DNA of 64,000 bases from the NCBI GenBank assembly GCA_035532835.1, contig DATKQG010000012.1, positions 1 through 64,000 of the forward strand, written 5' to 3'. Of this stretch, positions 1,881-25,407 are shown piece by piece. This stretch comes from Candidatus Dormiibacterota bacterium (GTDB lineage Bacteria > Vulcanimicrobiota > Vulcanimicrobiia > Vulcanimicrobiales > Vulcanimicrobiaceae). The translations under genes and the position numbers were made by a program. Each line of letters opens with the position of its first letter. Within the stretch, counting starts at the first letter, position 1. Under the pieces are notes generated by a model that saw only the letters and a list, made by a program, of their open reading frames with translations, was not told the origin of the DNA and made no database searches.

Positions 1881-4280
1881 ATGTCACGTCTCTGCGCGGC
1901 GGCGCTCGTCGCCGTCTGTTTGCTTACCTGTGGCGCGAATGCGTTCGCGGCCACGACCAGCCTTATTCGCGGCGTCGTCACGCTGGCGGGCAAGCCGCAA
2001 GCGGGAGCGACCGTTACGCTAACGGGCGACGGCTCGTCGTTTACCACCACCACCGGCCCGAGCGGCGTCTACCATTTTTCGCGAGTACCGTTCGGCCACT
2101 ATCACCTCACGGTTCGCGAGAACGGCTCGGATAATCCCACCCTCGATATCGACATCACGAGCGACTCGGTCGCCACGGTCAACGTGCCGCTGGACAGGCT
2201 TGCAATCATCGGCCGGGCGGTCGTTGCGGCGCACGCGGGTGCGAGCGGCACGCCCGTCTCCGTGAACGTGATCTCGAAGCAGCAAATCGCGAACTCGCCC
2301 AATCGCGATAATCTCAACCGGCTCATCGAAACGGTTCCGGGCATCGTGCGCTTTTCGTATAACGAACCGGTCGCGCACGGCTTCCACGGCGTGACGTATG
2401 AAATCGACGGCGCACCGCTTCCGCTTGCGACCAGTTCCAACTTCGGCGAGATCATCGATCCGCGCAACATCGATTCACTCGAAATCTCAACCGGCGCGAT
2501 GCCCGCAGAATACGGTGGCAGCCGCGCCGGCGCCGTCATCAACATCGTCACCACGCGGCTCTCGGACGTCGCTCCCGGAAGCTACGGGCACGTCAGCATC
2601 GGGGGCGGAAGTTTCGGCTCCGCCTCCGGCAGTCTCAGCGACTTGATACGTTTCAAGAACAGCGAGCTGTTTGTGAGCACGAACGCGCAGCGCAGCAACC
2701 CCGGCATCGATGCTCCAACGTACTCGCCCATCCACGACGGCTCGTCGAATGCGGACCAGTTCGTGCGTTTCCTCACACAACTTAGCCCCCGCAGCACCTT
2801 GTCTTTTGACGCATCGAATCAGTTAGGGCAGTTTCAGATTCCAATCAATACCGATCCGAACAATCCGATCGATCCGGTCTTTAGCCCAGCCGGGACCGAC
2901 GACGTGCAGCGCGAGTACGACCGCTTCTTCAACGTCAATTTCACGACCACGTCCAAAGACGGGGATGGGATCTTTCAAGTGATTCCATGGGTGCGGTACA
3001 CCCGCATCGCCTATGCGGGCAATTTAGCGAGCGACGTGCAAACGTTGGCTCCGAACTCGGCGTATGGCGATCCAACTTCTCCATCGGCGCCGCTCTACGC
3101 AAACCAAATTGGGCTCCGGCAAGATCGCCGTGCAAGCTACGGGGGCATTCGCATCTCGGACTTCCGCGCCACCAAGCATCACGCATTCAAAGTGGGCTTG
3201 GACGCAAGCCGCGAGATTTTTAACGCATCGCAGACCTTCGGGTGCTACGACCCCGCATGCACGCTCGCGCCAACCACCCCTTTGCCGCCGCCGCCCGCTC
3301 CCGGATACTACGCTTTTACGACCGGACAGCATCAGGCCGGCGCTCAAATCGGGATCTACGCGCAAGACCAGTGGCAGCCCAATCGCAATCTGGCGGTCAA
3401 TTACGGCCTGCGTTACGATCATTCAACCGGCTATGCCGGTGGATACATGCTCGAGCCGCGCATCGGCATCAACCTCTCCGACGGCGGCAAAAATATCGCT
3501 CACGTCTACTACGGACGCTTCTACGCCGCGCCGCAGCTTGAGGACGTTCGAGCCGATTGCGTGCTCCTTAACGGCTGCAGCGGGACGCCGACATACAACC
3601 TCCAACCCGAACGCGACGCATACTACGAACTCGGCGTCGCGCACTACTTCAACGCCCACATGAAAGGCTACGTCAATATCTTTCAGCGTTCGGTGACGAA
3701 CGTACTCGACACGACGCAATTCCTCAATACGCCGCTCTTTGCGGTCTTCAATAATGCTACCGGCATCGACACCGGCTTCGAAGTACGGTTGCAAGATGCG
3801 CTACACGACGGCGACTCGTGGTACGTCAGCGGAACGGTATCGGGGTCGTATGCGGGGGGCATCTCGGGGTCGACGTTTCTCTTTCCAACATCGAGCCTCG
3901 ATACGGGTGGGCTGCCGCTCACCTCGCCGGCGCTGCTCGCACCCGAGGATCACGATCAAACGGTCGCGGTTACGGCTGCCTACACGCACACCTTCGGGCC
4001 GATGCGCTCCTGGTTTGGAACGCTCCAAACCAATTATGGCACCGGCTACCCGGTTGCATTTCAGAATCTCAACGGCGGCGTACTCAACGGACGGTTAGCA
4101 TCGCACACAACCTTCGATCTCTCGCTCGGCCGGCACTCGGCGCCAAGGATTTTTGGCTTCGATTTCGACGTGCAAAATCTGTTGAACCATCAGTACGTCA
4201 TCAAGATCGCGAACGGGTTCAACACGACGCAGATCGCAAGCGGACGCCGGGTGGACTTCCGCATTACCTCCGCGCTCTAA
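1881..4280 (+). CDS. TonB-dependent receptor with carboxypeptidase-regulatory-like N-terminal domain
   Basis: 799 residues with a signal peptide (residues 1-24) and a good ribosome site (GAGGAG) before the ATG. Residues ~28-95 form a CarboxypepD_reg-like beta-sandwich (GVVTLAGKPQAGATVTLTGD...). A plug domain follows (~residues 125-215, with SVNVISKQQI and the GAMPAEYGGSRAGAVINIVT block typical of plug ends). The remainder is a large beta barrel with alternating aromatic strands, closing with RRVDFRITSAL. Such receptors import or bind large or complexed substrates using TonB energy; this subtype is often linked to polymer or peptide uptake. Substrate cannot be told. No TonB or ExbBD gene is in the window. 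Confidence 0.88.
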   Translation: MSRLCAAALVAVCLLTCGANAFAATTSLIRGVVTLAGKPQAGATVTLTGDGSSFTTTTGPSGVYHFSRVPFGHYHLTVRENGSDNPTLDIDITSDSVATVNVPLDRLAIIGRAVVAAHAGASGTPVSVNVISKQQIANSPNRDNLNRLIETVPGIVRFSYNEPVAHGFHGVTYEIDGAPLPLATSSNFGEIIDPRNIDSLEISTGAMPAEYGGSRAGAVINIVTTRLSDVAPGSYGHVSIGGGSFGSASGSLSDLIRFKNSELFVSTNAQRSNPGIDAPTYSPIHDGSSNADQFVRFLTQLSPRSTLSFDASNQLGQFQIPINTDPNNPIDPVFSPAGTDDVQREYDRFFNVNFTTTSKDGDGIFQVIPWVRYTRIAYAGNLASDVQTLAPNSAYGDPTSPSAPLYANQIGLRQDRRASYGGIRISDFRATKHHAFKVGLDASREIFNASQTFGCYDPACTLAPTTPLPPPPAPGYYAFTTGQHQAGAQIGIYAQDQWQPNRNLAVNYGLRYDHSTGYAGGYMLEPRIGINLSDGGKNIAHVYYGRFYAAPQLEDVRADCVLLNGCSGTPTYNLQPERDAYYELGVAHYFNAHMKGYVNIFQRSVTNVLDTTQFLNTPLFAVFNNATGIDTGFEVRLQDALHDGDSWYVSGTVSGSYAGGISGSTFLFPTSSLDTGGLPLTSPALLAPEDHDQTVAVTAAYTHTFGPMRSWFGTLQTNYGTGYPVAFQNLNGGVLNGRLASHTTFDLSLGRHSAPRIFGFDFDVQNLLNHQYVIKIANGFNTTQIASGRRVDFRITSAL

Positions 4281-4311: not shown

Positions 4312-4470
4312 TTAGATGAGATGCTTCAACCGGAGCGCCTCGTACGTCTGCTTGCAGCCGCAGAAGGATGGAGGTTTCTCGAGCGTTCCAGGGCTCTGCA
4401 CCACGCATCCCCGTTCGCCGTGTAGAGTGACCGAGTGCCCGCACTCGTCGCATGCATCGCTTTTAAGCAA
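4312..4470 (-). CDS. Tiny Cys-rich (zinc-ribbon-like) protein
   Basis: About 52 residues from a TTG at 4470 that overlaps the stop of the preceding minus-strand gene (translational coupling is likely). The chain has a CDECGH motif, then HGERGC and, near the end, FCGCKQTY, giving four to five cysteines plus histidines in zinc-ribbon spacing. Small proteins with CxxCGH...HGxxGC...CxC patterns are common and usually uncharacterised; metal binding is inferred from spacing. The frame is open further upstream (to 4548), but only the part after the TTG looks protein-like. Confidence 0.5.
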   Translation of the reverse strand: MLKSDACDECGHSVTLHGERGCVVQSPGTLEKPPSFCGCKQTYEALRLKHLI

Positions 4471-5023
4471 CGCGCATACGGCTTTTAGGATGCACCGCGG
4501 TTGCAAGCGCTGCGACGATGGAACGAAGCGCGCCATCCGAACGGGCATGCATCAGTTCGAGCACCAAGCTTGGGGAGGCCCCAAGCCCACCTTCGTCGCG
4601 CCCGATGCGTTGGGCGAATTCGTCGGCGACGGCTACGATGAGGGCGAGGGTGCCGACCCGGTCGTCGCCATCGATCGCATAGCGTTGGTACTCGCGGATG
4701 GGACCTGCCAGATTCCGGAGCTCGGGAATCCGCTCGAGAGCCGCCGGGTCGAGGTCTCGCAGAACGCCGATGCGGCGCGCCCGCACGGCATCCGGAGCGT
4801 CTTTGAGGGCCCCGGCGATTCGCGCCGACCACTCCCCGACTTCGCGAGCCCGGGCATAAGCCGAAGTATTGCTGCCGACGGAGAGCACCAGCACGGCGTC
4901 GATAACCGCCTCTACCTGCGCTTCCCGCACCCAAGCGGTCTCAAGCACGCTCGGCGCTATCGTCCGCAGCTTCCGCTCGGCCTCCAAACGCCCCAGCTCC
5001 CAAAGGGTAAGTTCCTCGTCCAT
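4463..5023 (-). CDS. Degenerate HD-like helical protein
   Basis: 186 residues from an ATG at 5023, no signal peptide. The order of helices (AYARAREVGEWSARIAGAL, then a middle segment around RIGVLRDLDPAALERIPELR, then GTLALIVAVADEFAQRI) resembles the HD-GYP/HD phosphohydrolase core, where VADEFD-like and LHDIGK motifs occur. The catalytic HD dyad and other metal ligands are absent, so it would be a non-catalytic relative if the resemblance is real. It could bind a nucleotide or act as a scaffold. It is translationally coupled to the Cys-rich mini-protein that follows. Function is unknown; the HD assignment is a moderate-to-weak inference. Confidence 0.5.
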   Translation of the reverse strand: MDEELTLWELGRLEAERKLRTIAPSVLETAWVREAQVEAVIDAVLVLSVGSNTSAYARAREVGEWSARIAGALKDAPDAVRARRIGVLRDLDPAALERIPELRNLAGPIREYQRYAIDGDDRVGTLALIVAVADEFAQRIGRDEGGLGASPSLVLELMHARSDGALRSIVAALATAVHPKSRMRVA

Positions 5024-5204
5024 AGGATGAGCCTAAGGCAGAGGGGGTCCGCTCCACTATACGCATGCTTAGGTAGGCCAGGGTGGAAATTCGGCCGAGT
5101 CCCGCTTCAAACCGGGCATATTTGCCGTAAGATGTCAAAATAGATGGTCGGAACCGACTACCTGTATTGCTTCGAAATCACTTCTTGAAAGGGTGGATAC
5201 CATA

Positions 5205-5477
5205 GTGTTTCAGTTACTGGCTCTTGTTCTTAGCATTTTTGCCGGCCATTTTGGCGGGACGTTCACCGCCGCCGATTCAGTTGGTGGACCGCCTACGTCG
5301 CGCATGATTGCCCCCGCTGACTCGATCGGCGGCCCGCTTACCTCACCCGTGGTTACCCCCGCCGACTCGATCGGTGGCCCGCTCACCGCGCCCGCGGTCA
5401 CCTCCGCTGACTCGATCGGCGGCCCGCCTGGGTCCGTAGTTGTCTCCGCCGACTCGATCGGTGGCCCACTTACGTAA
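5205..5477 (+). CDS. Short secreted-type peptide precursor made of ADSIGGP repeats
   Basis: 90 residues from a GTG at 5205, placed 8 bases after the purine-rich AAAGGGTGG; a GTG at 5193 in the same frame is possible but sits inside that ribosome site. A hydrophobic N-terminal stretch (residues ~2-15, FQLLALVLSIFAGHFGG) looks like a signal or anchor. The rest is five tandem units of the form ADSIGGPLTxPxVTP (lengths 15, 15, 15, 14 and a final 9 residues); the first has ADSVGGPP. Nothing else is present. The gene ends 62 bases before a LuxR-family regulator. A multi-copy signalling peptide precursor or a small surface repeat protein are both possible; no family is recognised. Confidence 0.6.
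   Translation: MFQLLALVLSIFAGHFGGTFTAADSVGGPPTSRMIAPADSIGGPLTSPVVTPADSIGGPLTAPAVTSADSIGGPPGSVVVSADSIGGPLT
5271..5474 (+). repeat. Tandem 45-bp coding repeats (five units, last partial)
   Basis: Five direct repeats with period 45, 45, 45 and 42 bases. The core GACTCGATCGGYGGCCC is almost invariant in the last four units, while the second half of each unit (TSPVVTP, TAPAVTS, GSVVVS) drifts. Differences in the core are mostly silent third-position changes, which suggests selection on the peptide rather than only recent slippage. It lies wholly within the coding region of the repeat peptide and is not CRISPR-like, since there are no unique spacers and the frame is kept. Confidence 0.85.
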
Positions 5478-5516: not shown

Positions 5517-5539
5517 ACTTTAGCGGGAACATCGTGCAT

Positions 5540-6994
5540 ATGGAAAGGCCTTCGCTGGTGGAAGACGCCTTAAACGCATTCCAACACGGTCACTATCAAA
5601 GGGCGAAAGACATTCTGTTGGGATGTCCGCGGTGCACTGCGTGCTCCGAAGTGCTTCTTCTCATCGGCCTGCGGCTACGAGATTACGATCTCGTTTGGAG
5701 AGCCGCCGTCGACCTGCGTGAAACGGGCGAGACGCCGGATCAGCGCGCAATCGGCGAAGCAAGGATATTTTATGCCGACGTTGCCCGGAATCGCACAGCA
5801 GAACCCTTCTCTCAGACAACGCGCCCGCGAACAGCGGTAGGGAAAGCCGAAATCGCACTTATCCACGCATCGATCGAATGGATGCGTGGTTCGACCGACA
5901 TAAAGACGCTACTTTCGAAAAGCCCTCCGCAAACGCTCGATCAAAAAATACGGCGAATATCGATTGAAGCCTGGATTGCAGCACATCGCGGAGATATTCG
6001 TCGACACTCGGAGTTACTGCTGAACGCACTAAGTCGTGCTTTGGCAGGTGGACTCGACGTCGGAGCGATCATGGTGCTTGCGCACCCCGTCGCCGCCCTG
6101 TTTCGCGAAATTGATTTAGGCGAGCTTGCCCCATATGCGGAAGCGATTCTCCAGAAGGTTCCATGGGGATCCGTTTCGATTCACGATCGCTTTTATGGAG
6201 AGCGAGCATTTGCCTGGCGACGAGCTCTCGACGGCGACTTCATATCAGCACTGAAACACCTGGATACCGCGATGCTTGCAGCGCCCGACGATCTCTGCAG
6301 GGCACTCTCTCATATTGACTCGGCTCGGATTGCCGTTGCGAGCAACTCGCATGTCCACGCGCAAGCCTCGGTAGCATTGGCTTTCGCGGCTTTTGAGCGC
6401 GTCGAATGGACCGTCGCCACGCATGAAGAGCCCTTGGGACTCTATGGTTCTCTCGACATTCTCTCGGTAGAACCAGAGCGAGCCCGGCTTCTGCTTGACC
6501 GTGCCGTTGCTGCCGTTCCTACTGCGGCGCTAGGGATCGCGCACGGTTCCCGCCTTACGGCATACCGAACATTTGCGGAAGCAGCTGTCGCAACGTCGCC
6601 TGAGGAAGCGCACATAAAGGCGAATGCTGCATATCGTCTTTTTATCAAGTGCGGATATATTTTTCGGGCGGCCTCGGCAGCCGTGCTTGCGTTCGAAGCA
6701 TCGGGCCAACGTAAATGGTTGGAACGTGCATCAGAACTCGTCATGCCGTATCCCCGCTCCATACTTGCGATGTCACTTCGTCAATATGCGGAGCGTCCCG
6801 ACGGATTGACCGAACGGCGCTTGCAGGTTTTGCGCGGACTTTGTCAGGGAAAAACCTCGCAACAGGTTGCCGAGTCTTTGTGCCTGTCCGAAAGTACCGT
6901 TAGGAAGCATATTGGAGATCTCCATCGTATCCTAGGAGTAACACGCCGCGCGGAGTTGGTGCTGCGGGCGATCGAACTCCGCCTCGCCGCGTAG
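5540..6994 (+). CDS. LuxR-family transcriptional regulator with long helical sensor region
   Basis: 484 residues from the ATG at 5540 (a GTG two codons earlier is possible). The C-terminal ~65 residues are a LuxR/NarL-type helix-turn-helix: DGLTERRLQVLRGLCQGKTS, then QQVAESLCLSESTVRKHIGD and RILGVTRRAELV. The first ~410 residues are mainly alpha-helical, with paired helices like those in TPR or MalT-type sensor regions; there is no receiver, PAS, GAF or ATPase motif. A helical-repeat sensor joined to a DNA-binding tail suggests that it binds a peptide or protein. It sits directly downstream of the ADSIGGP-repeat peptide gene, so the two may form a signal-receptor pair. That pairing is inference. 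Confidence 0.8.
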   Translation: MERPSLVEDALNAFQHGHYQRAKDILLGCPRCTACSEVLLLIGLRLRDYDLVWRAAVDLRETGETPDQRAIGEARIFYADVARNRTAEPFSQTTRPRTAVGKAEIALIHASIEWMRGSTDIKTLLSKSPPQTLDQKIRRISIEAWIAAHRGDIRRHSELLLNALSRALAGGLDVGAIMVLAHPVAALFREIDLGELAPYAEAILQKVPWGSVSIHDRFYGERAFAWRRALDGDFISALKHLDTAMLAAPDDLCRALSHIDSARIAVASNSHVHAQASVALAFAAFERVEWTVATHEEPLGLYGSLDILSVEPERARLLLDRAVAAVPTAALGIAHGSRLTAYRTFAEAAVATSPEEAHIKANAAYRLFIKCGYIFRAASAAVLAFEASGQRKWLERASELVMPYPRSILAMSLRQYAERPDGLTERRLQVLRGLCQGKTSQQVAESLCLSESTVRKHIGDLHRILGVTRRAELVLRAIELRLAA

Positions 6995-7070: not shown

Positions 7071-7103
7071 TCAGCGAGCAATGCGATTCATCGCTTTTTA
7101 TTT
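7071..7103 (+). terminator. Weak terminator after the LuxR regulator
   Basis: A short stem (GCGA-TTCA-TCGC) is followed by TTTTTATTTT on the plus strand, downstream of the regulator stop at 6994 and overlapping the convergent gene's end. The stem is only four base pairs, so efficiency is doubtful. Confidence 0.35.
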
Positions 7104-7529
7104 TGTAAAAACTAAGCCCGAGATTTTGCCGGCTTGGTCGAACGAAATGTACTCCTCGATGGATCCGGCCTTGAATGCAACGACGTAGCGATAGACCGTG
7201 GTTTGGCCAACCATTTTGGAGCCGCCGTATGCCGCACCGTACGGCTGACCGAGAGGCGCGAGCTGCTTTTGCAGAGTGGTTAGCATCTGTGGCGTGAGTT
7301 TCGCGTCGATCGTCTTATTGAGTTGGCTGCGATCGACGTTGCCGCTCTGCACTCGTTCCAGCCATTCGACGGCCTTGCTCTCTATCGCCGGATTTTGAGA
7401 GGCAGCGCTCGCGGCCAAGCCCGGCAGGGGCGCGGCCGGCGCCGGCGCGGTCTGCGCGCCCGCGCTCAAAGGCGTTGTGCCGACTGCAAGCAGCATTGCG
7501 ATGACGACGGGGTAACGACTTTTACTCAT
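7098..7529 (-). CDS. Exported NTF2-like (DUF3887-type) protein at the end of the amyloid locus
   Basis: 143 residues with a signal peptide (residues 1-25, ending near SAGAQT) and an Ala/Pro linker. The mature part (SKAVEWLERVQSGNVDRSQL ... LTPQMLTTLQKQLAPLGQP ... YRYVVAFKAGSIEEYISFDQ, ending GLVFTK) has the cone-fold pattern of small NTF2-like/DUF3887 domains: an N-terminal helix, a hinge, then strands in which a cavity could bind a ligand or peptide. The gene lies 31 bases downstream of the FapF-like pore gene on the same strand, so it is probably the last gene of the amyloid operon. It is not part of the classical six-gene fap set; a chaperone or assembly role is inference. Confidence 0.7.
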   Translation of the reverse strand: MSKSRYPVVIAMLLAVGTTPLSAGAQTAPAPAAPLPGLAASAASQNPAIESKAVEWLERVQSGNVDRSQLNKTIDAKLTPQMLTTLQKQLAPLGQPYGAAYGGSKMVGQTTVYRYVVAFKAGSIEEYISFDQAGKISGLVFTK

Positions 7530-7560
7530 GATTGCCTCTCACCTGATTGTCTCTGAGCGC

Positions 7561-8892
7561 TCACGGAACCACGTGTGGCACGCGGAACGTGAGCTGGAAA
7601 TTGGGAGCGTCTTGAGTAAGCCCGATCGCCAAAACCGTTTGGTACGAGAGGTTCTTGCTTACCGCGTAGGTCGCTCCAATGTTGAACACCGCCGCATTGA
7701 GCGCACTTCCAACCACATTGGTCCACGGCAGCCCGTCGGGGCGCTCCCGCAGCGGCTGAACCATCGAATCCTGGAACGAGAACGAGGTGCTCATGCGGTC
7801 GTTCAGAGAAAACGCCGTTCCGATCGTAAAGCTCAGCGAGCCACCGGGCTGGATCGTTCCGGGCTGTGTGATGCCGACATAAGGGCTGATGTCGTTGTAG
7901 TGCTGCGGTAAGTTATAGGCTAGATTGACGCCTCCGAAAACGACTGCCGGATCGAGCGTTTTGATCATCGTCGCGCCCAGTTGTAATCCCCAGGCTCCTT
8001 GCCCCGTCGGGAGCGCTTCCACATAGGAAAGGTTGTTGTTCGTCGTGTCCTGGTACACCTTAATCCCATACGGGCTGATCCCCGTCGGGGCGGTGATATG
8101 GGCACTCAGAATGGTCGCCGGGCTGCCAAGCGAATGCTGAGCAAGCTGATAGTAGAGCCCAAAGTTTACATCGCCGATCGAGCCGCTATGCGTACTGCGC
8201 TCGCTGATCTGTGCGGTGGACGATTGCGCACCCTGAGAACTGTACATCGACGAGCGATAGACGAATGGAACCGTCGCATCGAATTGCAAACGATTAGATG
8301 CGCCGTAAGCGATATTGAGATTCGGCTCGTAGAGCGCGTTCTGCTGCCGGCTTACGTTGATGTTCCCAAGAAAAATCGCTCCCAGCGCCATGAATCCGTT
8401 AAGGGTGAAGAATCGGTTATCGCCATACGTATAGGTCGCCGCAGGCGTCAGGGTTAGCCCCTTACTGAATAGCGCATTCTCTTGCTGGTATACGGCTTTT
8501 ACCGCGTTGGCAGTCGGCGCAGCTTTGCCATAGGTTTGCTGGGCTATCGGAGGTGGAGCAATGAGGTGCGCTGCCGACGCCGACGGGGCCGACGCCTCGA
8601 CGTAATGGTTCTGCGACGGCAGAGGGTCCAAATAGCTCGGCGTCGATTGATAGACGGCCGGCTCGGCAGTAACGACGTTAGGCGAGGACATCTGCGACGA
8701 CTCGTTCTGTTGCCGGCTGCGTTCGAGCGCCTTGATGCGCTGGCGATCTCGCGCATTCTCCTTTGCCAGATGCTGCATCTGCAACTGGAGAGCATGCACC
8801 TGTTGCGCGAGCGTCTGCTCTGCCAGCGCCGGCGCCGGCAAAACCATCGCAGAAGACAAAACTACGGCCAGATATCGCGAACCTTTAAACAT
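7561..8892 (-). CDS. fapF: FapF-like outer-membrane amyloid secretion pore
   Basis: 443 residues. A signal peptide (1-24) is followed by a coiled coil (~residues 25-60, heptad pattern in QQVHALQLQMQHLAKENARD), a proline/serine-rich linker to ~residue 135, and a beta-barrel region to the C terminus (alternating strands, ending FQLTFRVPHVVP). This is the architecture known for FapF of Pseudomonas: a trimeric barrel whose N-terminal coiled coil gates amyloid export. The same barrel also resembles the general phenol-degradation/transporter porins, so family assignment rests on the coiled coil and on the neighbours: C39 peptidase, FapE-like protein and GxN-repeat subunits just upstream. ATG start with an AGGGGG site. 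Confidence 0.78.
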   Translation of the reverse strand: MFKGSRYLAVVLSSAMVLPAPALAEQTLAQQVHALQLQMQHLAKENARDRQRIKALERSRQQNESSQMSSPNVVTAEPAVYQSTPSYLDPLPSQNHYVEASAPSASAAHLIAPPPIAQQTYGKAAPTANAVKAVYQQENALFSKGLTLTPAATYTYGDNRFFTLNGFMALGAIFLGNINVSRQQNALYEPNLNIAYGASNRLQFDATVPFVYRSSMYSSQGAQSSTAQISERSTHSGSIGDVNFGLYYQLAQHSLGSPATILSAHITAPTGISPYGIKVYQDTTNNNLSYVEALPTGQGAWGLQLGATMIKTLDPAVVFGGVNLAYNLPQHYNDISPYVGITQPGTIQPGGSLSFTIGTAFSLNDRMSTSFSFQDSMVQPLRERPDGLPWTNVVGSALNAAVFNIGATYAVSKNLSYQTVLAIGLTQDAPNFQLTFRVPHVVP

Positions 8893-8906
8893 GAGCGCGC
8901 CCCCTT

Positions 8907-9764
8907 TTATGGTATTCCGATTAGGGTATTCAAAATCGTCGACATTCCCGTGCCGGTTAACGGGCTCGTCGGCTGACTATGAACGGTGATGCCGAGTTGA
9001 TTGGTAATCTGGTTTGCGTCGCCCCACGCTTGTACGGATTGCCCGATCGTGCCGGACCCTACCACCTGCGACACCGTGCCGCGCGGCGTCACGATCGAGA
9101 CGCTGAACGCGTTGTCCCCGACCGTGGTCGAGCATTGCGCACCGCAGGTATTGATGACGGGAACCGGAGTTAAGCCCGGCGCCGCGTTGCCATAGGTGAC
9201 GGTCGCTTCGTTTGACGCCGTATTGCCGTCGCCGGCTATTTGAATGCTCTGCCCGACGCCGCTCGAGATATTCGTCAAGGGAGCGTTTCCGGCGATGCTG
9301 TCGTTGGCGGGCCCTCCTGGAATACCGCCGCCGCTCCCGGAACTCCAACTCTGGATCGAAACGCTCTTAGACTGTACGTCGATCCCAACGTTTAGTCCGA
9401 CGCTGTCTTGCGTCGGGCTCGCAGCACCTTTTACCGTCCACGTGCTGACCATCGCGATCCCGAAATACGTTACGCTGCCCGATCCCGTAAGGTTGGAGAG
9501 CGGTGAGGGGCCACTGGCGGCGGCCGCCGCGGGTGTCTGTGAGAGGATCTGCGAGCCGGGCGTCCCCATCGCAAGGGCAATCGGCCGAATCTCCGTCGGC
9601 GGTACGTATTTACCGCGAATCCCATTAAGATCCGCGTCCGAAACGGCCGAAGCATCCGCCGGCATGGCCGGAAACGCCGTCGCGTCGGCTCGCGCCGGCA
9701 CTGCGTCGAAGAAAGGGAGCGCCGCAAGAACTACGGTTGCGATCGTTAAGCGGGCGATAAGCAT
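8907..9764 (-). CDS. FapE-like exported protein of the amyloid locus
   Basis: 285 residues from the ATG at 9764, which has an AGGAG site seven bases upstream; an earlier GTG/ATG pair at 9782-9777 overlaps the C39 peptidase stop. After the signal peptide (residues 1-26) there is a SDADLNGIRGKYV segment, an RGK/RGR-type motif that recurs near the mature N terminus of proteins exported with C39-peptidase systems. The body is Ser/Gly/Asn rich with two curlin- or Fap-like units (QIAGDGNTASNEATV and QAWGDANQITNQLGI) and a CGAQC cysteine pair. Size, position between the peptidase and the pore, and weak amyloid-like repeats fit FapE, the minor extracellular component. Direct homology needs a profile search. 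Confidence 0.65.
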   Translation of the reverse strand: MLIARLTIATVVLAALPFFDAVPARADATAFPAMPADASAVSDADLNGIRGKYVPPTEIRPIALAMGTPGSQILSQTPAAAAASGPSPLSNLTGSGSVTYFGIAMVSTWTVKGAASPTQDSVGLNVGIDVQSKSVSIQSWSSGSGGGIPGGPANDSIAGNAPLTNISSGVGQSIQIAGDGNTASNEATVTYGNAAPGLTPVPVINTCGAQCSTTVGDNAFSVSIVTPRGTVSQVVGSGTIGQSVQAWGDANQITNQLGITVHSQPTSPLTGTGMSTILNTLIGIP

Positions 9765-9778
9765 GGCGCTTCTCCTCA

Positions 9779-10474
9779 TCACAGGCGATTCATGGCCGGA
9801 ATGTACACGAGCATCAACTGCGCGTTATTAAGCGCATTCGATACAGACGGAATGCCATTCGATATCACGTCAAGCGGCAGCGGCTGGTTCAGCGCCAGCA
9901 ATTTATTGTGTATGTCGTAGGTGTTGGCCGCGATCACGAAAATGATGCCGTCCCACGAGTGCGCGAATGCACCCGTCTCGATCCGGCGGTTTCCGAACAT
10001 CGGATCGGCCACATACACGTAGTCCGGATCCGCATGCTTCAACACCACGAAGTGCGAGTATCCCTCGACCGTTATCAGCGCGATCGACGGCACTTTAATC
10101 GCGTACAGCGATGTTAGCGGAAGACGATAGCCGGACCCGATAAACCCTATCGCGTCGACATAGTGCTTGATGTCCAGCAATGAAAAGCCGTGGGTTTTGA
10201 CGACTTGCGGATCGCTGATGCTGAGCATTCCACGGATCGTGCCGTTTTCAGTCGCTGCCAAACCGTACGCGTAGCGCAGTAGGGTCGCCACCGAGGCGGC
10301 CCCGCAGCTATAGTCCGTCGATTGGCGAACGATATGGGCAAAGCGTTCCGAATAGAACGATGAGATGTGGAAGCTCACTTGCCCGGCTCCCGGGATGAGC
10401 ATCGGCGATTGCTGCCCCAAGGCTCCTCGAGAGACCGCGAGCATGACTAAAAGCGTTAGACTGATAATGCGCAT
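9779..10474 (-). CDS. fapD: FapD-like C39 family peptidase
   Basis: 231 residues with a signal peptide (1-20). The papain-like C39 core is clear: QSTDYSCGAASVATLLRY with catalytic Cys57, GYSHFVVLKH with His141, and VADPMFG with Asp157; the oxyanion Gln is at position 51 of the QSTDYSC block. Unlike bacteriocin-processing transporters there is no ABC or membrane part, which matches FapD, a periplasmic C39 peptidase required for amyloid fibril export. Its stop overlaps the start region of the FapE-like gene. It is separated from the major repeat subunit gene by 76 bases that contain a strong hairpin. Confidence 0.82.
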   Translation of the reverse strand: MRIISLTLLVMLAVSRGALGQQSPMLIPGAGQVSFHISSFYSERFAHIVRQSTDYSCGAASVATLLRYAYGLAATENGTIRGMLSISDPQVVKTHGFSLLDIKHYVDAIGFIGSGYRLPLTSLYAIKVPSIALITVEGYSHFVVLKHADPDYVYVADPMFGNRRIETGAFAHSWDGIIFVIAANTYDIHNKLLALNQPLPLDVISNGIPSVSNALNNAQLMLVYIPAMNRL

Positions 10475-10505
10475 GGTGGTTGTTTTTCAACATTCCGCAT
10501 AGTAT

Positions 10506-10533
10506 GTGTGGGCACGGATCGCCGTGCCCACAC
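10506..10533 (-). terminator. Strong hairpin between amyloid subunit and peptidase genes
   Basis: Perfect 12-bp arms (GTGTGGGCACGG / CCGTGCCCACAC) with a 4-base loop, in the 76-base gap after the major repeat subunit. No T-run follows on the minus strand. It probably protects the upstream subunit mRNA or causes partial termination, so that the fibre subunits are made in excess of the secretion parts, as in other amyloid operons. The consequence is inferred. Confidence 0.7.
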
Positions 10534-10550
10534 CACAAAGCAGCTCGTCT

Positions 10551-11387
10551 CTATGGCTCGACCACGAGGACGTTGGCTTGCTGGTTGCCGATGCCGGAGG
10601 CTACGTTAGCCCCGATGTTTCCTGAAGCGTTCTGGAAGGCGTTGTTACGAACATCAGCGTTATTTCCACCCGACAGAATGTTGACGGTGACTGCCGAGAT
10701 TTGGCCGATGGTCGAGGTGACGCTGCCGAGATCTCCGTCTGCAGCAGAGCTGAGGTTCATCACAACAGCACTATTTGATTGCTGATTCAGCGATCCGGCA
10801 GCCAGGTTCAGCCCGATATTGCCTTTGGCGTTCTGGAACGCATTGTTCATAGCCTCGGCGTTATTTCCGCCCGAGGCGAGGGAGATCGTAAAGGCCTGGC
10901 CTTGCCCGACCGTATCGCTGACGTTTGTCACGTTCTCGAGTACGGCAAGGGCGTTGTCCTGCATATTCTGTGCGCCGCTCGCGATGTTGGCTCCGACATT
11001 ACCCGAAGCATTGCGAAACGCGTTATTTTGCACAGTTGCTTTGTTCAGACCGGAGAATACGGATGCCGCACCCAAGGTCCCTTGGAGAAAAGTTCCGGTA
11101 TAGTTGTACGCTGGCGATGTCGGGCCATCGATATATGCGCTATTGGCCTGCTGGTTGCTGTCGCCGGCGGCGATGTTTGCGCCGATGTTGCCGCTCGCAT
11201 TCTCGAACGCATTGTTTATGGCCGCCGCGGTGTTTGCGCCGCCGCCGCCATTACCGCTCAAGATATTGATCTGCCCGACGGTCTGATCGACGGGAACCGT
11301 GGGCGGCGCGGCGAAGGCCGGCCCGCATAGAGCTGCGATGAATGCAAAGCTCGCCGAGGCCGCTATGAGTTTTCTGTTGATCCGCAC
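10551..11387 (-). CDS. fapC: Fap-type amyloid subunit with four GxNxAxGxxNQQxN repeats
   Basis: 278 residues from GTG at 11387 with an AGGAG site seven bases upstream. Signal peptide 1-27. Four imperfect repeats at residues 58-86, 121-149, 181-209 and 248-276, each of the form NNAFxNAxGNIGxNxAxGxx followed by NQQxNxxxV (the second has NMQDN). This matches the GVNxAAGxxNQQxN motif described for the FapB/FapC fibre subunits of Pseudomonas. The repeats are spaced by linkers rich in Gly, Ser, Thr and Asn. Residues with N/Q ladders can stack as a cross-beta fibre. Number of repeats and length fit a FapC/FapB subunit. It follows the second subunit gene by 28 bases and precedes the strong intergenic hairpin. 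Confidence 0.83.
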   Translation of the reverse strand: MRINRKLIAASASFAFIAALCGPAFAAPPTVPVDQTVGQINILSGNGGGGANTAAAINNAFENASGNIGANIAAGDSNQQANSAYIDGPTSPAYNYTGTFLQGTLGAASVFSGLNKATVQNNAFRNASGNVGANIASGAQNMQDNALAVLENVTNVSDTVGQGQAFTISLASGGNNAEAMNNAFQNAKGNIGLNLAAGSLNQQSNSAVVMNLSSAADGDLGSVTSTIGQISAVTVNILSGGNNADVRNNAFQNASGNIGANVASGIGNQQANVLVVEP

Positions 11388-11415
11388 GTGATGCTCCTTC
11401 TGTAATCGCGTGACG

Positions 11416-12021
11416 CTAATGCGTTACGCCTTGTTGAACTTGGAATAGAAAGCCATTGGCCGATGCGTTTCCGGTCCCGGCAGTTTGGTTGAGTTGAACG
11501 ATCCCTTTGCCATGAAAGGTCGTGACATCCGAACTCACCGAGTTCGCTATTGCGGCCGGTGTTGTACCGTTCGCGGATGTCGTTTGAACCGGCATGGCGC
11601 CGGCGAGCGTGTCGTCGCTCAACTGCTGGGCGGGAACCGCAAACCGCACGATGGCGAGGTTGCCCTGTTCGTTACCGGATCCGGCAGATTGGTTTACCTG
11701 CACGAGACCGGAAACATTCGAAAAAGCAAAGTCTCGGATGCTAGCGGAGCCCCCACTCCCATTGGAGATGGTGGCCTGCTGCGTTAAGCGAAGGGGAAGG
11801 TGTGTGTCGCCGACGGTGATATCGGTGACGTTGCCTTGAACGTTCCCATTACCGGCGGCCTGATTGATATGAAGCGCGCCGGGAACTGTTTGGAACGCAT
11901 CGTTCGCGATCGTTGCGGTATCACTGGCAGGCGTCGGATCGGCGAGCGCCGGTGTTCCGACTCCGCTCAGAAAGCCCAGAGTAACGGCCACTGCAACGAT
12001 GTTGAAGGGACGCATATTCAC
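11416..12021 (-). CDS. Second Fap/curlin-like repeat protein (FapA/FapB position)
   Basis: 201 residues, GTG at 12021 (or ATG two codons on), signal peptide 1-27. Three shorter repeats at residues ~40-66, 97-124 and 163-190 of the form GxxxINQxAGxGNxQGNxxxI (for example GALHINQAAGNGNVQGN). They share the N-Q-AG-GN-x-x-N frame of the neighbouring subunit but diverge more, so this is probably the minor subunit/nucleator (FapB-like) or the FapA-type partner. It is the first structural gene of the amyloid operon, 102 bases after the response-regulator pair. Which Fap letter it deserves cannot be decided by eye. Confidence 0.72.
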   Translation of the reverse strand: MNMRPFNIVAVAVTLGFLSGVGTPALADPTPASDTATIANDAFQTVPGALHINQAAGNGNVQGNVTDITVGDTHLPLRLTQQATISNGSGGSASIRDFAFSNVSGLVQVNQSAGSGNEQGNLAIVRFAVPAQQLSDDTLAGAMPVQTTSANGTTPAAIANSVSSDVTTFHGKGIVQLNQTAGTGNASANGFLFQVQQGVTH

Positions 12022-12123: not shown

Positions 12124-12513
12124 TTATTTGAACGTTAGATCGTTGCACATGTCCGTTAGCATGCGACGAATCGTCGGCGATCCGGCACTCTTGGGAATGA
12201 CCAATTTAACCTGCGGCGCGGTATGAATTTGCGATTGGGTATGCGACATTCGCGCACAAAAAAGCACGACCGAGCTCTCTCGGCTCGCCGCCTCGGCACG
12301 GCGTAGTGCATTCAAGAGGCCGCCGGTGAGATAGTCGGTATCCATGAAGACCAGTCCGGGGCGATGCCTGCGCAGATAGTCCTCGTCGAGATCCGCGCTG
12401 ACGTACGCTACGGAAATGTTGAGGCCCGAGAAGATGGCGGTCAGGGACCGGACCAATATGCCCTGCGCCTCAACGATATAGACGCTGGGCAGAGAGATGG
12501 ACGGCATATTCAT
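12124..12513 (-). CDS. Stand-alone receiver-like protein
   Basis: 129 residues consisting of one receiver (REC) fold with no output domain: first strand SVYIVEAQGILVRSLTAIF, phosphoacceptor region GLVFMDTDYL with Asp58, and a conserved late lysine in VIPKSAG. The usual acidic pair after strand 1 is replaced by Glu15-Ala-Gln, so Mg binding and phosphorylation may be altered. The first strand resembles that of the neighbouring NarL-type protein (both have IVExQ), which suggests the two are paralogues. It lies between that regulator and the amyloid subunit genes on the same strand, so a role in controlling fibre production is likely by position only. Confidence 0.7.
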   Translation of the reverse strand: MNMPSISLPSVYIVEAQGILVRSLTAIFSGLNISVAYVSADLDEDYLRRHRPGLVFMDTDYLTGGLLNALRRAEAASRESSVVLFCARMSHTQSQIHTAPQVKLVIPKSAGSPTIRRMLTDMCNDLTFK

Positions 12514-12546: not shown

Positions 12547-13245
12547 TTAGAGGCCGCTACTGCCCACCGACGTTAGTACCAAGGGACTACGACTTCCGGT
12601 AGCGAGACCGTGACGCACCGCGTGAACTGCAACCTGGGATCGAGCCGTAAGCCCAAGTTTCACGAAGATACTCCCGATATGGTTTTTAACGGTCTTTTCT
12701 GATAACTGCAACTCGCTTGCGATCTGCTTGTTCGTCAGGCCCTCTGCGAGCAGACTAACGATTTCGAGTTCGCGAACGGTGAGGTCGCTGGTGCATCGCT
12801 GGGTCCGCGGCGCGGAGCCCTTGAGGACGGATCGCACGAGCCGCGGGTCGACGTAAAACCCGACGCTGGCGACGGTATGGATTGCATTGAGAATTTCCGT
12901 CGGAGCGAGGTCCTTAACGATATACGCATCGATGCCGCTTGCGAGCGCGTTTAATACGACGCTTTCATCCAGAAATGCCGAGAGCATGCAAATGCGTGAA
13001 CTGACTCCAGCTTTCCGAAGCGCATGAACGATTTGGCAGATATTGAGCCCGTATGGGTCACCGTCGATCACGAAGATGTCATGTTCTACAGCCAGCAAGG
13101 TGGCAATCGTAAGCTCGCTTGCTTCGGCGACGATTTCGAGCTGGTCGTCGGTGGCGATAATCGAGCGAAGGGCTTCGAGCAATAGCCGCTGGTGTTCGAC
13201 AATGATCAATCTAGCGGGAACGGTGTTGAAGTTTGATAGCTCCAT
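12547..13245 (-). CDS. NarL/FixJ-family response regulator heading the amyloid locus
   Basis: 232 residues from the ATG at 13245, which has GGAAAG six bases before it; the frame extends to a TTG at 13326, but no ribosome site is seen there. Receiver domain at ~residues 10-130 (ARLIIVEHQRLLLEALRSII, acceptor in HDIFVIDGDPYG, Lys in AYIVKDLA) followed by a LuxR-type helix-turn-helix (LTVRELEIVSLLAEGLTNKQ, ELQLSEKTVKNHIGSIFVKL). The acidic pair is Glu-His instead of Asp-Asp. No histidine kinase is in the window. The gene is the most upstream in the minus-strand set that leads to the Fap genes, so it is the best candidate activator. Confidence 0.85.
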   Translation of the reverse strand: MELSNFNTVPARLIIVEHQRLLLEALRSIIATDDQLEIVAEASELTIATLLAVEHDIFVIDGDPYGLNICQIVHALRKAGVSSRICMLSAFLDESVVLNALASGIDAYIVKDLAPTEILNAIHTVASVGFYVDPRLVRSVLKGSAPRTQRCTSDLTVRELEIVSLLAEGLTNKQIASELQLSEKTVKNHIGSIFVKLGLTARSQVAVHAVRHGLATGSRSPLVLTSVGSSGL

Positions 13246-13706
13246 CACACACTTTCCAAGATACGGTAGTGGTAACATTTCTAAGGACGGAAAAAGACCG
13301 GCAGCACTCTGCGCGTCGATTTTCAATCGACGTAGCTGTACTGATCGTCCCTACGTCTTACTCCCTACTGTAGCGGGCGCAGGGCGTCCTAGGCACCCTC
13401 AATTTAGGGGGGTTTTGGAGGGTAAAATGCCCTTTGGAGCCTAGGTATATCGCCATATGCGGCGCGGGCCTCGTGCCTCACCGGCCCGCCCCGCCCGGCG
13501 GTATTTCCTAAGATGAAATTTCGGCGTACCTAGCTCGGCTATGAACCTTGCCGATGAAGCTTAAAGTACGTAAAGACGAGGTGATCGCAAGGGGGCCTAC
13601 CTAATATGCAAGCAATAGTTCTCCGATAGATTTCGCGAGGAGTCGAAGGAGCGGTACCCGGCGTTCTCGCCGGGCATGTGACCGTTGAGGATCATTGGGA
13701 TGGCCG
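13246..13706. other. Divergent intergenic control region
   Basis: About 460 bases without a convincing gene, between two divergently transcribed regulators. It contains nested inverted repeats at 13388-13445 and a 7-bp stem with a TTCT loop (CCCGGCG/CGCCGGG) at 13657-13674, about 20 bases before the LuxR gene start. No known riboswitch consensus was recognised. It most likely holds both promoters and their regulatory sites. Confidence 0.6.
13388..13445. repeat. Nested inverted repeats (CCTAGGC...GCCTAGG)
   Basis: Outer arms CCTAGGC (13388-13394) and GCCTAGG (13439-13445); directly inside the left arm is ACCCTC (13395-13400), which pairs with GAGGGT (13418-13423). The inner loop is a G-rich run (AATTTAGGGGGGTTTTG). 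The arrangement could be a compound operator or a structured RNA element in the leader of one regulator. Confidence 0.5.
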
Positions 13707-14642
13707 ATGCGACAACCTGAAAAACATCACATAAAGAAACCGAAAACTGCGATCGAGGCAGGCCCCGCGGATAGTATTACCGGGTGGTGCTACGTTAGGC
13801 TCGGCCGGTTCGGCGAAATCCGAATGCTCCAGCACGAGGGCATTAAAGATCAAGCGTATGTATTTCGCCTCATTTACGCCGATATCGAGCTCTCCGGGAT
13901 CGCGGACGATATTTTGCACGGCGTTGTGGGCTTCGATGGAAGCCGAGCCCTCGCATTCACCGAATTACATACCAACGGCGTCAGCCGTATTTATATGCTG
14001 GTGCGCGACAAGACCGCTCGTGGTGAAGCGTGGCTCGTGGGGTTGCGCCAAGAAGCGAGCACCCTGCTCCGGCTCTACAACGCTCTCCCGGATAACTGTG
14101 TGAACGGTGCGCTGAACATGCGCACGATCACCAGCATCGCGGTAATCCAAGTTGACGCTTCTCAGACTCCGCTGGCATCGTGGTTTTCGGAGGATGCGAG
14201 CCTTCGTGCGGTAGCACCGATATTGGCCCTCAAGCACGATCGGCTGCAAGCGCATATCGCAACGCTCGTTTCGGCCTTGACGCAGGATTGGGATTGGAAC
14301 GACCCGTCACGGTGCGCTCCCGTTAGCGGGATGCTCGGCACGGATATCTTGCTGCAGATCGTGCCATCGTCTGCGCAGGGATCGGTTCTAGCGACGCTCA
14401 TTTTCGAGCCCGTGCGGATGCGCCGCACCCTTTCAGATACGTTTGCCACACGTGCCATCACCGCTCGCGAGTCGGACGTCGTGCGCCTCGTCATGGCCGG
14501 TCGCTCCGTGAAAGAGATCGCCAGCGCTCTCTCGGTAGCAGAATGTACGATTCAGGACCACATCAAAAACGTACTAGCGAAGACCAACGCCCGGAATCGA
14601 TCGCAAATGATCGCAACGTTGCTCGGATTCGGCGCGAGCTAG
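13707..14642 (+). CDS. LuxR-family regulator divergent from the amyloid locus
   Basis: 311 residues from ATG at 13707 (a TTG at 13695 is in frame). The last ~65 residues are a LuxR helix-turn-helix (ITARESDVVRLVMAGRSVKE, SVAECTIQDHIKNVLAKTNA). The N-terminal ~240 residues contain a GAF/PAS-like alpha-beta region (GVSRIYMLVRDKTARGEAWL, ...LLRLYNALPD) but no motif precise enough to name a ligand. It ends two bases before the convergent deaminase gene. The 3' end of this gene and the 3' end of the deaminase have a degraded copy at 27361-27460. Regulation of the amyloid genes is plausible from position. Confidence 0.75.
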   Translation: MRQPEKHHIKKPKTAIEAGPADSITGWCYVRLGRFGEIRMLQHEGIKDQAYVFRLIYADIELSGIADDILHGVVGFDGSRALAFTELHTNGVSRIYMLVRDKTARGEAWLVGLRQEASTLLRLYNALPDNCVNGALNMRTITSIAVIQVDASQTPLASWFSEDASLRAVAPILALKHDRLQAHIATLVSALTQDWDWNDPSRCAPVSGMLGTDILLQIVPSSAQGSVLATLIFEPVRMRRTLSDTFATRAITARESDVVRLVMAGRSVKEIASALSVAECTIQDHIKNVLAKTNARNRSQMIATLLGFGAS

Positions 14643-23893: not shown

Positions 23894-25252
23894 TTATCGG
23901 AAGAGTGCGAGTACCGATTGGGCGTTATTGTTCGATTGCGAGAGTACCGACGTTCCTACCTGGACCATAATCTGCAGTCTTGTGAACTCGGTTGTCGCTT
24001 GACCGACGTTGAGATCGCGAATCGACGATTCCGACGCCTGCAGGTTTACGGCTGCGGTAGTGTCGCTATCCGCATCCTCGTTCAAGCGCACAACGACGGC
24101 GCCCAGGTTCGCTTGCTGCGAGAGCACCGTACTTAGCGCGATGTCGATCTGACCGATCGCATCTTCAGCTCCGAGCGATGGATTATTGGCACTCGAGATG
24201 GCGACGTTGATATTCGAGATGCGCAGCGTCGAGGTGTTGGTCGCCTGAATCCCAACCTGAATGACGTCGCCTTCATTGGCACCGGATTGAAAGTTGAACG
24301 CGGGGTTGCTGGGATTCGTTAACGCCGCAACATTTTGACTGACCTTGATATATGCCGTCGTCCCGACATCCGCGGTGGTGATGGCGCCGAGCGTAACCGC
24401 CACGTTATCGAAGCCCGAGTAGTTGCTCGTGAACTTTGCAGTTATATTCTGCGGATGCAAGCCGAGCGCCGTGGTCGCGACCGCACTCGGGCCGAATAGC
24501 GTACCCGATACGCAGACCAGTCCGGTCGCGCTCTCGATGAACGTTTCTTGTACTGCGATCGAGACACCGGTGTTGATAACTTGAAGCTCGATCGTGCCGT
24601 CGACCGTCGATTCCCCTGCGCCGGTGCCGTTCCCGAGCCCCTGCACGCCTGGCAGCGCCGCATTCGGTGTCGTGTTAAAGGCGGTCGGAAACGACGCGAC
24701 CGCCGTCGCGACGAGGAATCCGTAATTGATGCCGCTGGCAGAAGCAACGCCGCCGTTCGTCGCAAGCGCGGAGTTCGCCGTGACGGTGAGGTACGCGTTT
24801 TGCTCCGCTTGGAATCCCGCGTGGCTGCCATCGAGGAGTGCCTGGCCGTTGAAGTTCGTGTTCTGCGAGATCCGGTTGACCTCAAGCAGAAGCTGCGAGA
24901 CCTCGGTTTGCAGATTAGCGCGATCGTTCTGGCTGTTGATGTCGGATGCGGCTTCGACGGCCAGCGAGCGAATGCGCTGAAGAATGTTGGTCGTCGTCGA
25001 CAGGGCGCCGAGTGCGACTTGCGCCGCGTTGTTGGCGTTCTGCACGTTTTGAACGGCGGTATTGAAACCATCGACGTTCGTCTGCAGATTTGTCGCGATC
25101 GCTAAACCGGAAGGGTCGTCGGCGGCGCTGTTGATGCGCAGGCCCGATGACAACTCATTGACGGTCTTTTGCAGCGCCTGCTGATTTCTGTTGAGATTGA
25201 GCTGGACGCTGTTAGCCAACAGGTTGTTTGAAATGCTCAGGCCTTGACTCAA
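23894..25252 (-). CDS. fliC: Flagellin
   Basis: 452 residues from a TTG at 25252; an ATG at 25267 is in frame, but its own codons supply the GGAGGAG ribosome site for the TTG, and SQGLSISNN is a normal flagellin start. The conserved D0/D1 N-terminal helix (NRNQQALQKTVNELSSGLRI NSAADDPSGLAIA) and C-terminal helix (TEFTRLQIMVQVGTSVLSQS NNNAQSVLALF) flank a variable region of ~250 residues that would form the filament surface. No other flagellar gene is in the window. A possible sigma-28-like -10 (ACCGATAG, 25337-25344 complement) precedes it, weakly. The divergent TPR-sulfotransferase may modify it. Confidence 0.93.
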   Translation of the reverse strand: MSQGLSISNNLLANSVQLNLNRNQQALQKTVNELSSGLRINSAADDPSGLAIATNLQTNVDGFNTAVQNVQNANNAAQVALGALSTTTNILQRIRSLAVEAASDINSQNDRANLQTEVSQLLLEVNRISQNTNFNGQALLDGSHAGFQAEQNAYLTVTANSALATNGGVASASGINYGFLVATAVASFPTAFNTTPNAALPGVQGLGNGTGAGESTVDGTIELQVINTGVSIAVQETFIESATGLVCVSGTLFGPSAVATTALGLHPQNITAKFTSNYSGFDNVAVTLGAITTADVGTTAYIKVSQNVAALTNPSNPAFNFQSGANEGDVIQVGIQATNTSTLRISNINVAISSANNPSLGAEDAIGQIDIALSTVLSQQANLGAVVVRLNEDADSDTTAAVNLQASESSIRDLNVGQATTEFTRLQIMVQVGTSVLSQSNNNAQSVLALFR

Positions 25253-25407
25253 GGGACACTCCTCCATGGTTGCGCCGAGACTTCCCGGCTAAGATGGGCT
25301 ATCCATAGCCCTCCCAACGGCGCCGATACACGTTTACTATCGGTAACTCCTGTCGCTTTTATAAGCGCAAAGGCTCGAGCCATCGCGGGCCGAGAACCCT
25401 ATATAAG

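Follow-up and report, generated by a model that had tools for sequence, protein, structure and literature searches.

The DNA analysed here, referred to below as the window, comprises 64,000 nucleotides, positions 1 to 64,000 of contig DATKQG010000012.1 (assembly GCA_035532835.1). It very probably holds a genuine fapBCDEF operon, that is, the genes of a Fap-type functional amyloid system, and this operon represents a lineage, Candidatus Eremiobacterota (Vulcanimicrobiota), for which the literature searched does not mention Fap. The first-pass annotation of the window had placed the locus probably outside Proteobacteria, and the genome indeed belongs to Candidatus Eremiobacterota, which NCBI lists under Vulcanimicrobiota in the kingdom Bacillati; a 16S gene was not found in it. 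A complete fapBCDEF operon is thereby placed in a Bacillati phylum, far from the Proteobacteria where Fap was discovered. The system itself is known and the lineage is new to it, and the part that seems to be undescribed is an RNA hairpin following fapC.

The five genes fapB, fapC, fapD, fapE and fapF are adjacent on the minus strand, from 12021 down to 7561, in the canonical order. The first, fapB (11416..12021, minus), encodes a minor subunit and putative nucleator of 201 amino acids (aa) with a signal peptide; this second repeat protein of the first-pass annotation is identified as FapB by its NCBIfam profile (E-value 2.4e-22) and by alignment with FapB from other phyla. It is followed by fapC (10551..11387, minus) for the major fibre subunit, 278 aa with a signal peptide (NCBIfam FapC 7.9e-25, and a repeat hidden Markov model, HMM), by fapD (9779..10474, minus) for an exported C39 cysteine peptidase (NCBIfam FapD 3.2e-58, Pfam C39 1.5e-17), and by fapE (8907..9782, minus; 291 aa), which overlaps fapD by 4 bases. 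The FapE-like protein and the FapF-like pore proposed earlier are both matched by NCBIfam profiles, FapE at 3.6e-11, in agreement with the alignment, and FapF (7561..8892, minus), an outer-membrane barrel with an N-terminal coiled-coil-like region, at 1.5e-95. The search with FapD and FapF profiles had been set beforehand as a refutation test, and it gave strong matches for both. A chance match is excluded, since the E-values range from 4e-11 to 2e-95 and the B-C-D-E-F synteny recurs in other genomes of the phylum.

A complete Fap locus at 7098-12021 had been proposed, with all components on one strand and with the subunits, D, E and F ordered as in Pseudomonas. The strand (minus) and the gene order hold, as does the presence of five genes from B to F, while fapA is absent and the outermost reading frame does not belong to the system. 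The latter (7098-7529, minus) shares its strand with fapF, lies downstream of it and encodes a small exported protein with weak Pfam matches only. As a candidate Fap gene it was rejected: it has no relative at other fap loci and no match to a Fap profile, and the fap operon proper is therefore confined to 7561-12021.

Several observations weigh against the identification of the operon. First, all five proteins score under the curated NCBIfam equivalog cut-offs. The FapB proteins of Acidithiobacillus, Bisbaumannia, Bryobacterales and one further proteobacterium likewise fall under theirs, so that the cut-offs look narrow. Second, none of the phylum's eight Fap-positive genomes gave a match to FapA, with a Pseudomonas positive control at 5.8e-20; the gene set is thus fapBCDEF. 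Operons without fapA are known to be common (PMC3792158), so that the gene does not strictly define the system. Third, the AlphaFold model of FapC has a mean predicted local distance difference test score (pLDDT) of only 60. Fourth, the genome G056, of the same genus and with a nearly identical rpoB, gives no FapD or FapF match, but its matching contig stops at window position 3517, before the locus, so that it may or may not lack the operon.

We now consider the subunits. The four repeats earlier read in FapC are present, both by sequence and by the repeat HMM, as NNAFENASGNIGANIAAGDSNQQAN, NNAFRNASGNVGANIASGAQNMQDN, NNAFQNAKGNIGLNLAAGSLNQQSN and NNAFQNASGNIGANVASGIGNQQAN. The repeat HMM places them, all on the minus strand, at aa 45-86 (11130..11255), 107-149 (10941..11069), 168-209 (10761..10886) and 235-276 (10560..10685). 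Imperfect as they are, they retain the invariant G-N-x-G-x-N-x-A-x-G-x-x-N-x-Q-x-N, whose columns are common to FapC of the window, Pseudomonas, Halomonadaceae, Acidithiobacillus-like bacteria and Bryobacterales. FapB carries 2-3 degenerate repeats.

With four repeats, the window FapC departs from the typical three, which the repeat HMM finds in 66 of 69 other loci, mostly Pseudomonas, and which have been described as almost universal (PMC12392863, PMC12822426), accounting for 94% of cases (PMC12392863), with larger numbers known. In seven relatives of the window (L010-L016) the same model counts 12, 3, 3, 3, 4, 4 and 3 repeats, so the number is not fixed and takes the values 3, 4 and 12 inside one family. 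The FapC with 12 repeats, from genome G086 (L010:9160-11808, minus), is 882 aa long, three times the length of the window FapC, and in that of G093 (L016:5274-6959, plus) repeats 1 and 2 are separated by an insert rich in Ser and Asn, several hundred residues long.

The window FapC aligns with FapC chains solved by cryo-EM, at 3.1e-12 (PDB 9nqd) and 1.7e-11. A structural check of the subunit had been proposed, and the AlphaFold model, built from 21 sequences, shows strands in each repeat at modest confidence. Its sole PDB match at E<=0.001 in Foldseek is FapC 9u4u (probability 0.97, TM-score 0.41 by target length). The model supports stacked layers but, its confidence being modest, falls short of proof.

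Among the remaining proteins, FapD (9779-10474) is, as had been read, a C39 peptidase with Cys57/His141/Asp157, according to sequence and Pfam, and this triad is invariant in 85 of 85 FapD proteins. FapE keeps the conserved columns of its family in the alignment. In all eight Eremiobacterota, FapE has a C-x3-C motif and is also extended at its N-terminus, which the other FapE proteins in the alignment are not; the FapE model (mean pLDDT 61) gave no PDB match at E<=0.001. Residues 127-440 of FapF align with the crystallised barrel of Pseudomonas FapF (PDB 5o68), at up to 1.5e-75, and its N-terminal coiled coil is read from the sequence only.

Two other identities were weighed for the locus. The Fil putative pilus system, related to Fap but distinct, has peptidase and channel families (FilB, a C39 peptidase, and FilC) akin to FapD and FapF, and the FilB and FilC models do match the window proteins, at 6.3e-33 and 1.6e-16. 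These matches are much weaker than those of FapD (3.2e-58) and FapF (1.5e-95); moreover, FapB, FapC and FapE are all there, with canonical repeats and order, and the definition of Fil used does not include Fap subunits. A Fil-type system is thus highly improbable. Even less probable is a mere FapD-FapF-like secretion pair serving another cargo. Such pairs exist in five Acidobacteriota regions (L197-L201), where a C39 peptidase neighbours a FapF-like channel as in the window, but those regions give no FapB, FapC or FapE match beside the two genes, whereas the window has all three and its repeats retain the invariant residues.

The intergenic region between fapC and fapD has a feature of its own. 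At 10506..10533 (minus) lies an RNA hairpin with a 12-bp uninterrupted stem and a 4-nt loop (fold z -5.2), the stability of which none of 200 shuffles matched. We surveyed the 70 bases 3' of each fap gene for stems of at least 8 uninterrupted pairs, in loci that are mostly Pseudomonas and hence not independent. Such a stem follows fapC in 74/82 loci, as against 2/80 after fapB, 3/85 after fapD and 4/85 after fapE; after fapF, which ends the operon in most loci, it is found in 40/85. A hairpin more stable than all 40 dinucleotide shuffles occurs in 60 of the 82 loci after fapC, compared with 1, 1 and 2 after fapB, fapD and fapE. The hairpins at this position are unrelated in sequence between lineages and include five Eremiobacterota types, several Pseudomonas types, and those of Bryobacterales, Acidithiobacillus, Halomonadaceae and Aquitalea. 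An alignment of 29 pseudomonad loci shows pair changes on both sides of the stem (G-C to A-T, C-G to T-A), in a few rows only. We did not find the hairpin described in the open full-text literature, papers on fap expression included, subscription papers lying outside the search, and it is apparently undescribed until now.

As to its function, the hairpin is probably a leaky terminator or an mRNA stabiliser that raises the subunits over the secretion parts. The broader proposal, which we hold with some reserve although we favour it, is that Fap operons from Pseudomonas to Eremiobacterota share an undescribed control element, unrelated in sequence and fixed in position after fapC, that sets the ratio of subunits to secretion machinery through leaky termination or 3' stabilisation. 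The alternative that the hairpin terminates transcription fully, with fapDEF as a separate transcription unit, agrees with the T-run found behind it in many Pseudomonas, as in intrinsic terminators. We consider it unlikely: the window hairpin has no T-run, the distance from hairpin to fapD start is only about 25-35 bases in many loci, which would leave little room for a promoter, and no sigma-70-like site was found there in the window, though a promoter may lie inside fapC. A hairpin acting as leaky terminator or stabiliser would offer a simple explanation for how one operon can make far more subunit than exporter.

Taken together with the homology to Pseudomonas, the components suggest the following course of events. 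All five Fap proteins would leave the cytoplasm via Sec. In the periplasm the C39 cysteine peptidase FapD would cut one or more Fap proteins and thereby license export, and FapF, predicted to form a trimeric 12-stranded barrel in the outer membrane with a coiled coil reaching into the periplasm, would export FapB, FapC and FapE. Outside, FapC would polymerise into cross-beta fibres with one layer per repeat, four in this case, nucleated by FapB, with FapE as a putative cap or anchor. The hairpin would let transcription, or else mRNA survival, continue only partially into fapDEF, so that, as we propose, subunits outnumber secretion parts.

We now turn to the distribution of the system in the phylum. 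FapF was found in 8 of 149 genomes, all of one family, and the same eight have FapD, with E-values no worse than 3e-51. After these the FapD matches drop to 2.5e-11, and the weaker ones are all located in open frames exceeding 700 residues, a length that C39 transporters would be expected to have. At the other fap loci of the phylum the genes likewise run B-C-D-E-F on one strand, except that the contig of L011 ends before FapB; full sets are also found in one Bryobacterales (Acidobacteriota) locus, in Pseudomonas and in Halomonadaceae. In an unrooted tree of FapD and FapF the eight Eremiobacterota form one deep clade with long branches (support 100/98; 100/99 in a repeat with fewer rows).

This tree conflicts with that of rpoB. 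In approximately unbiased (AU) tests groupings from the rpoB tree are rejected for FapD and FapF (p 0.0063 and 0.0101) and a FapDF grouping for rpoB (p 4e-5), p-values that are indicative since the groups were named after both trees had been viewed. Transfer or differential loss of fap within the family is likely. The conflict, suggesting some transfer or loss, would also fit a recent acquisition of the operon from Proteobacteria, for example Acidithiobacillus, in place of an old family component, as would the patchy occurrence in a single family. However, the FapD and FapF of all eight genomes fall in the one clade, and its long internal branches speak against a recent import from the Proteobacteria sampled. 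We therefore regard this origin as distinctly less plausible than an old presence in the family.

Compared with the fapABCDEF operon of Pseudomonas, the window shares the B-C-D-E-F order, the repeat signature, the FapD triad, the FapE family, the hairpin after fapC and a FapF barrel with the PTG motif. It differs in lacking FapA, in having four FapC repeats and not the usual three, in a FapC without the CxxC that many pseudomonads have at the C-terminus of theirs, in the C-x3-C and N-terminal extension of FapE, and in the LuxR/NarL regulators adjoining the operon. Acidithiobacillus is similar to the window in its subunits, D, E and F and in having more than three FapC repeats (6-8), and in the unrooted D+F tree it falls on the side of the Eremiobacterota. 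Unlike the window, its fapF is opposite in orientation to the E-D-C-B genes, and its FapE has no C-x3-C. On the 6.5 kb plasmid p5 of Acidithiobacillus sp. AMEEHan (NZ_CP118750.1, L202) two short coding sequences each hold part of a FapD-like match, which is probably a broken remnant or perhaps a misassembled fragment.

The expectation that Fap would be much wider spread than usually described is borne out to the extent that the operon lies outside Proteobacteria, but such a spread had already been reported in part (PMC6173800, PMC12822426). Dueholm et al. in 2013 found Fap in Proteobacteria only (PMC3792158), and Rouse et al. in 2018 added 25 genera and found fapD paired with fapF in another five phyla (PMC6173800). 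In a December 2025 survey of GTDB v226 the groups reported to have Fap operons include Desulfobacterota, Nitrospirota and Bacillota, and its figures may already count Eremiobacterota without naming them, since it covered uncultured species (PMC12822426). In the literature searched we found no paper naming Eremiobacterota together with amyloid.

Finally, three neighbouring genes may take part in regulating the operon. Upstream of fapB lies a NarL-type response regulator (12547..13326, minus; Pfam Response_reg and GerE), with relatives beside fap in L012-L015. Between this gene and fapB is a small receiver-like protein (12124..12513, minus), whose best relatives fall in the genus whose members have it beside fap, and a divergent LuxR-type regulator (13695..14642, plus; Pfam GerE) has its best relatives beside fap in genomes G082 and G083, where relatives of all three genes lie beside fap; in L014 and L015 a relative of the NarL gene does so. 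The LuxR and receiver families were rejected as Fap-specific, being present in 69/149 and 37/149 genomes, mostly without fap, and the three genes are therefore linked to the operon as candidates only.

On the other side of the operon the window holds a trio of genes: an orphan of 186 aa (4463-5023, minus), a protein of 94 aa that begins with a hydrophobic stretch and contains five ADS[IV]GGP repeats (5193-5477, plus) and a LuxR-type regulator (5534-6994, plus). Two further genomes of the phylum, both lacking fap, have this trio as well, there with three repeats (L193, L194), and it looks like a repeated-peptide signal cassette. Further along, at 23894-25267 (minus), the window has a flagellin gene (Flagellin_N 9e-36, Flagellin_C 1e-13).

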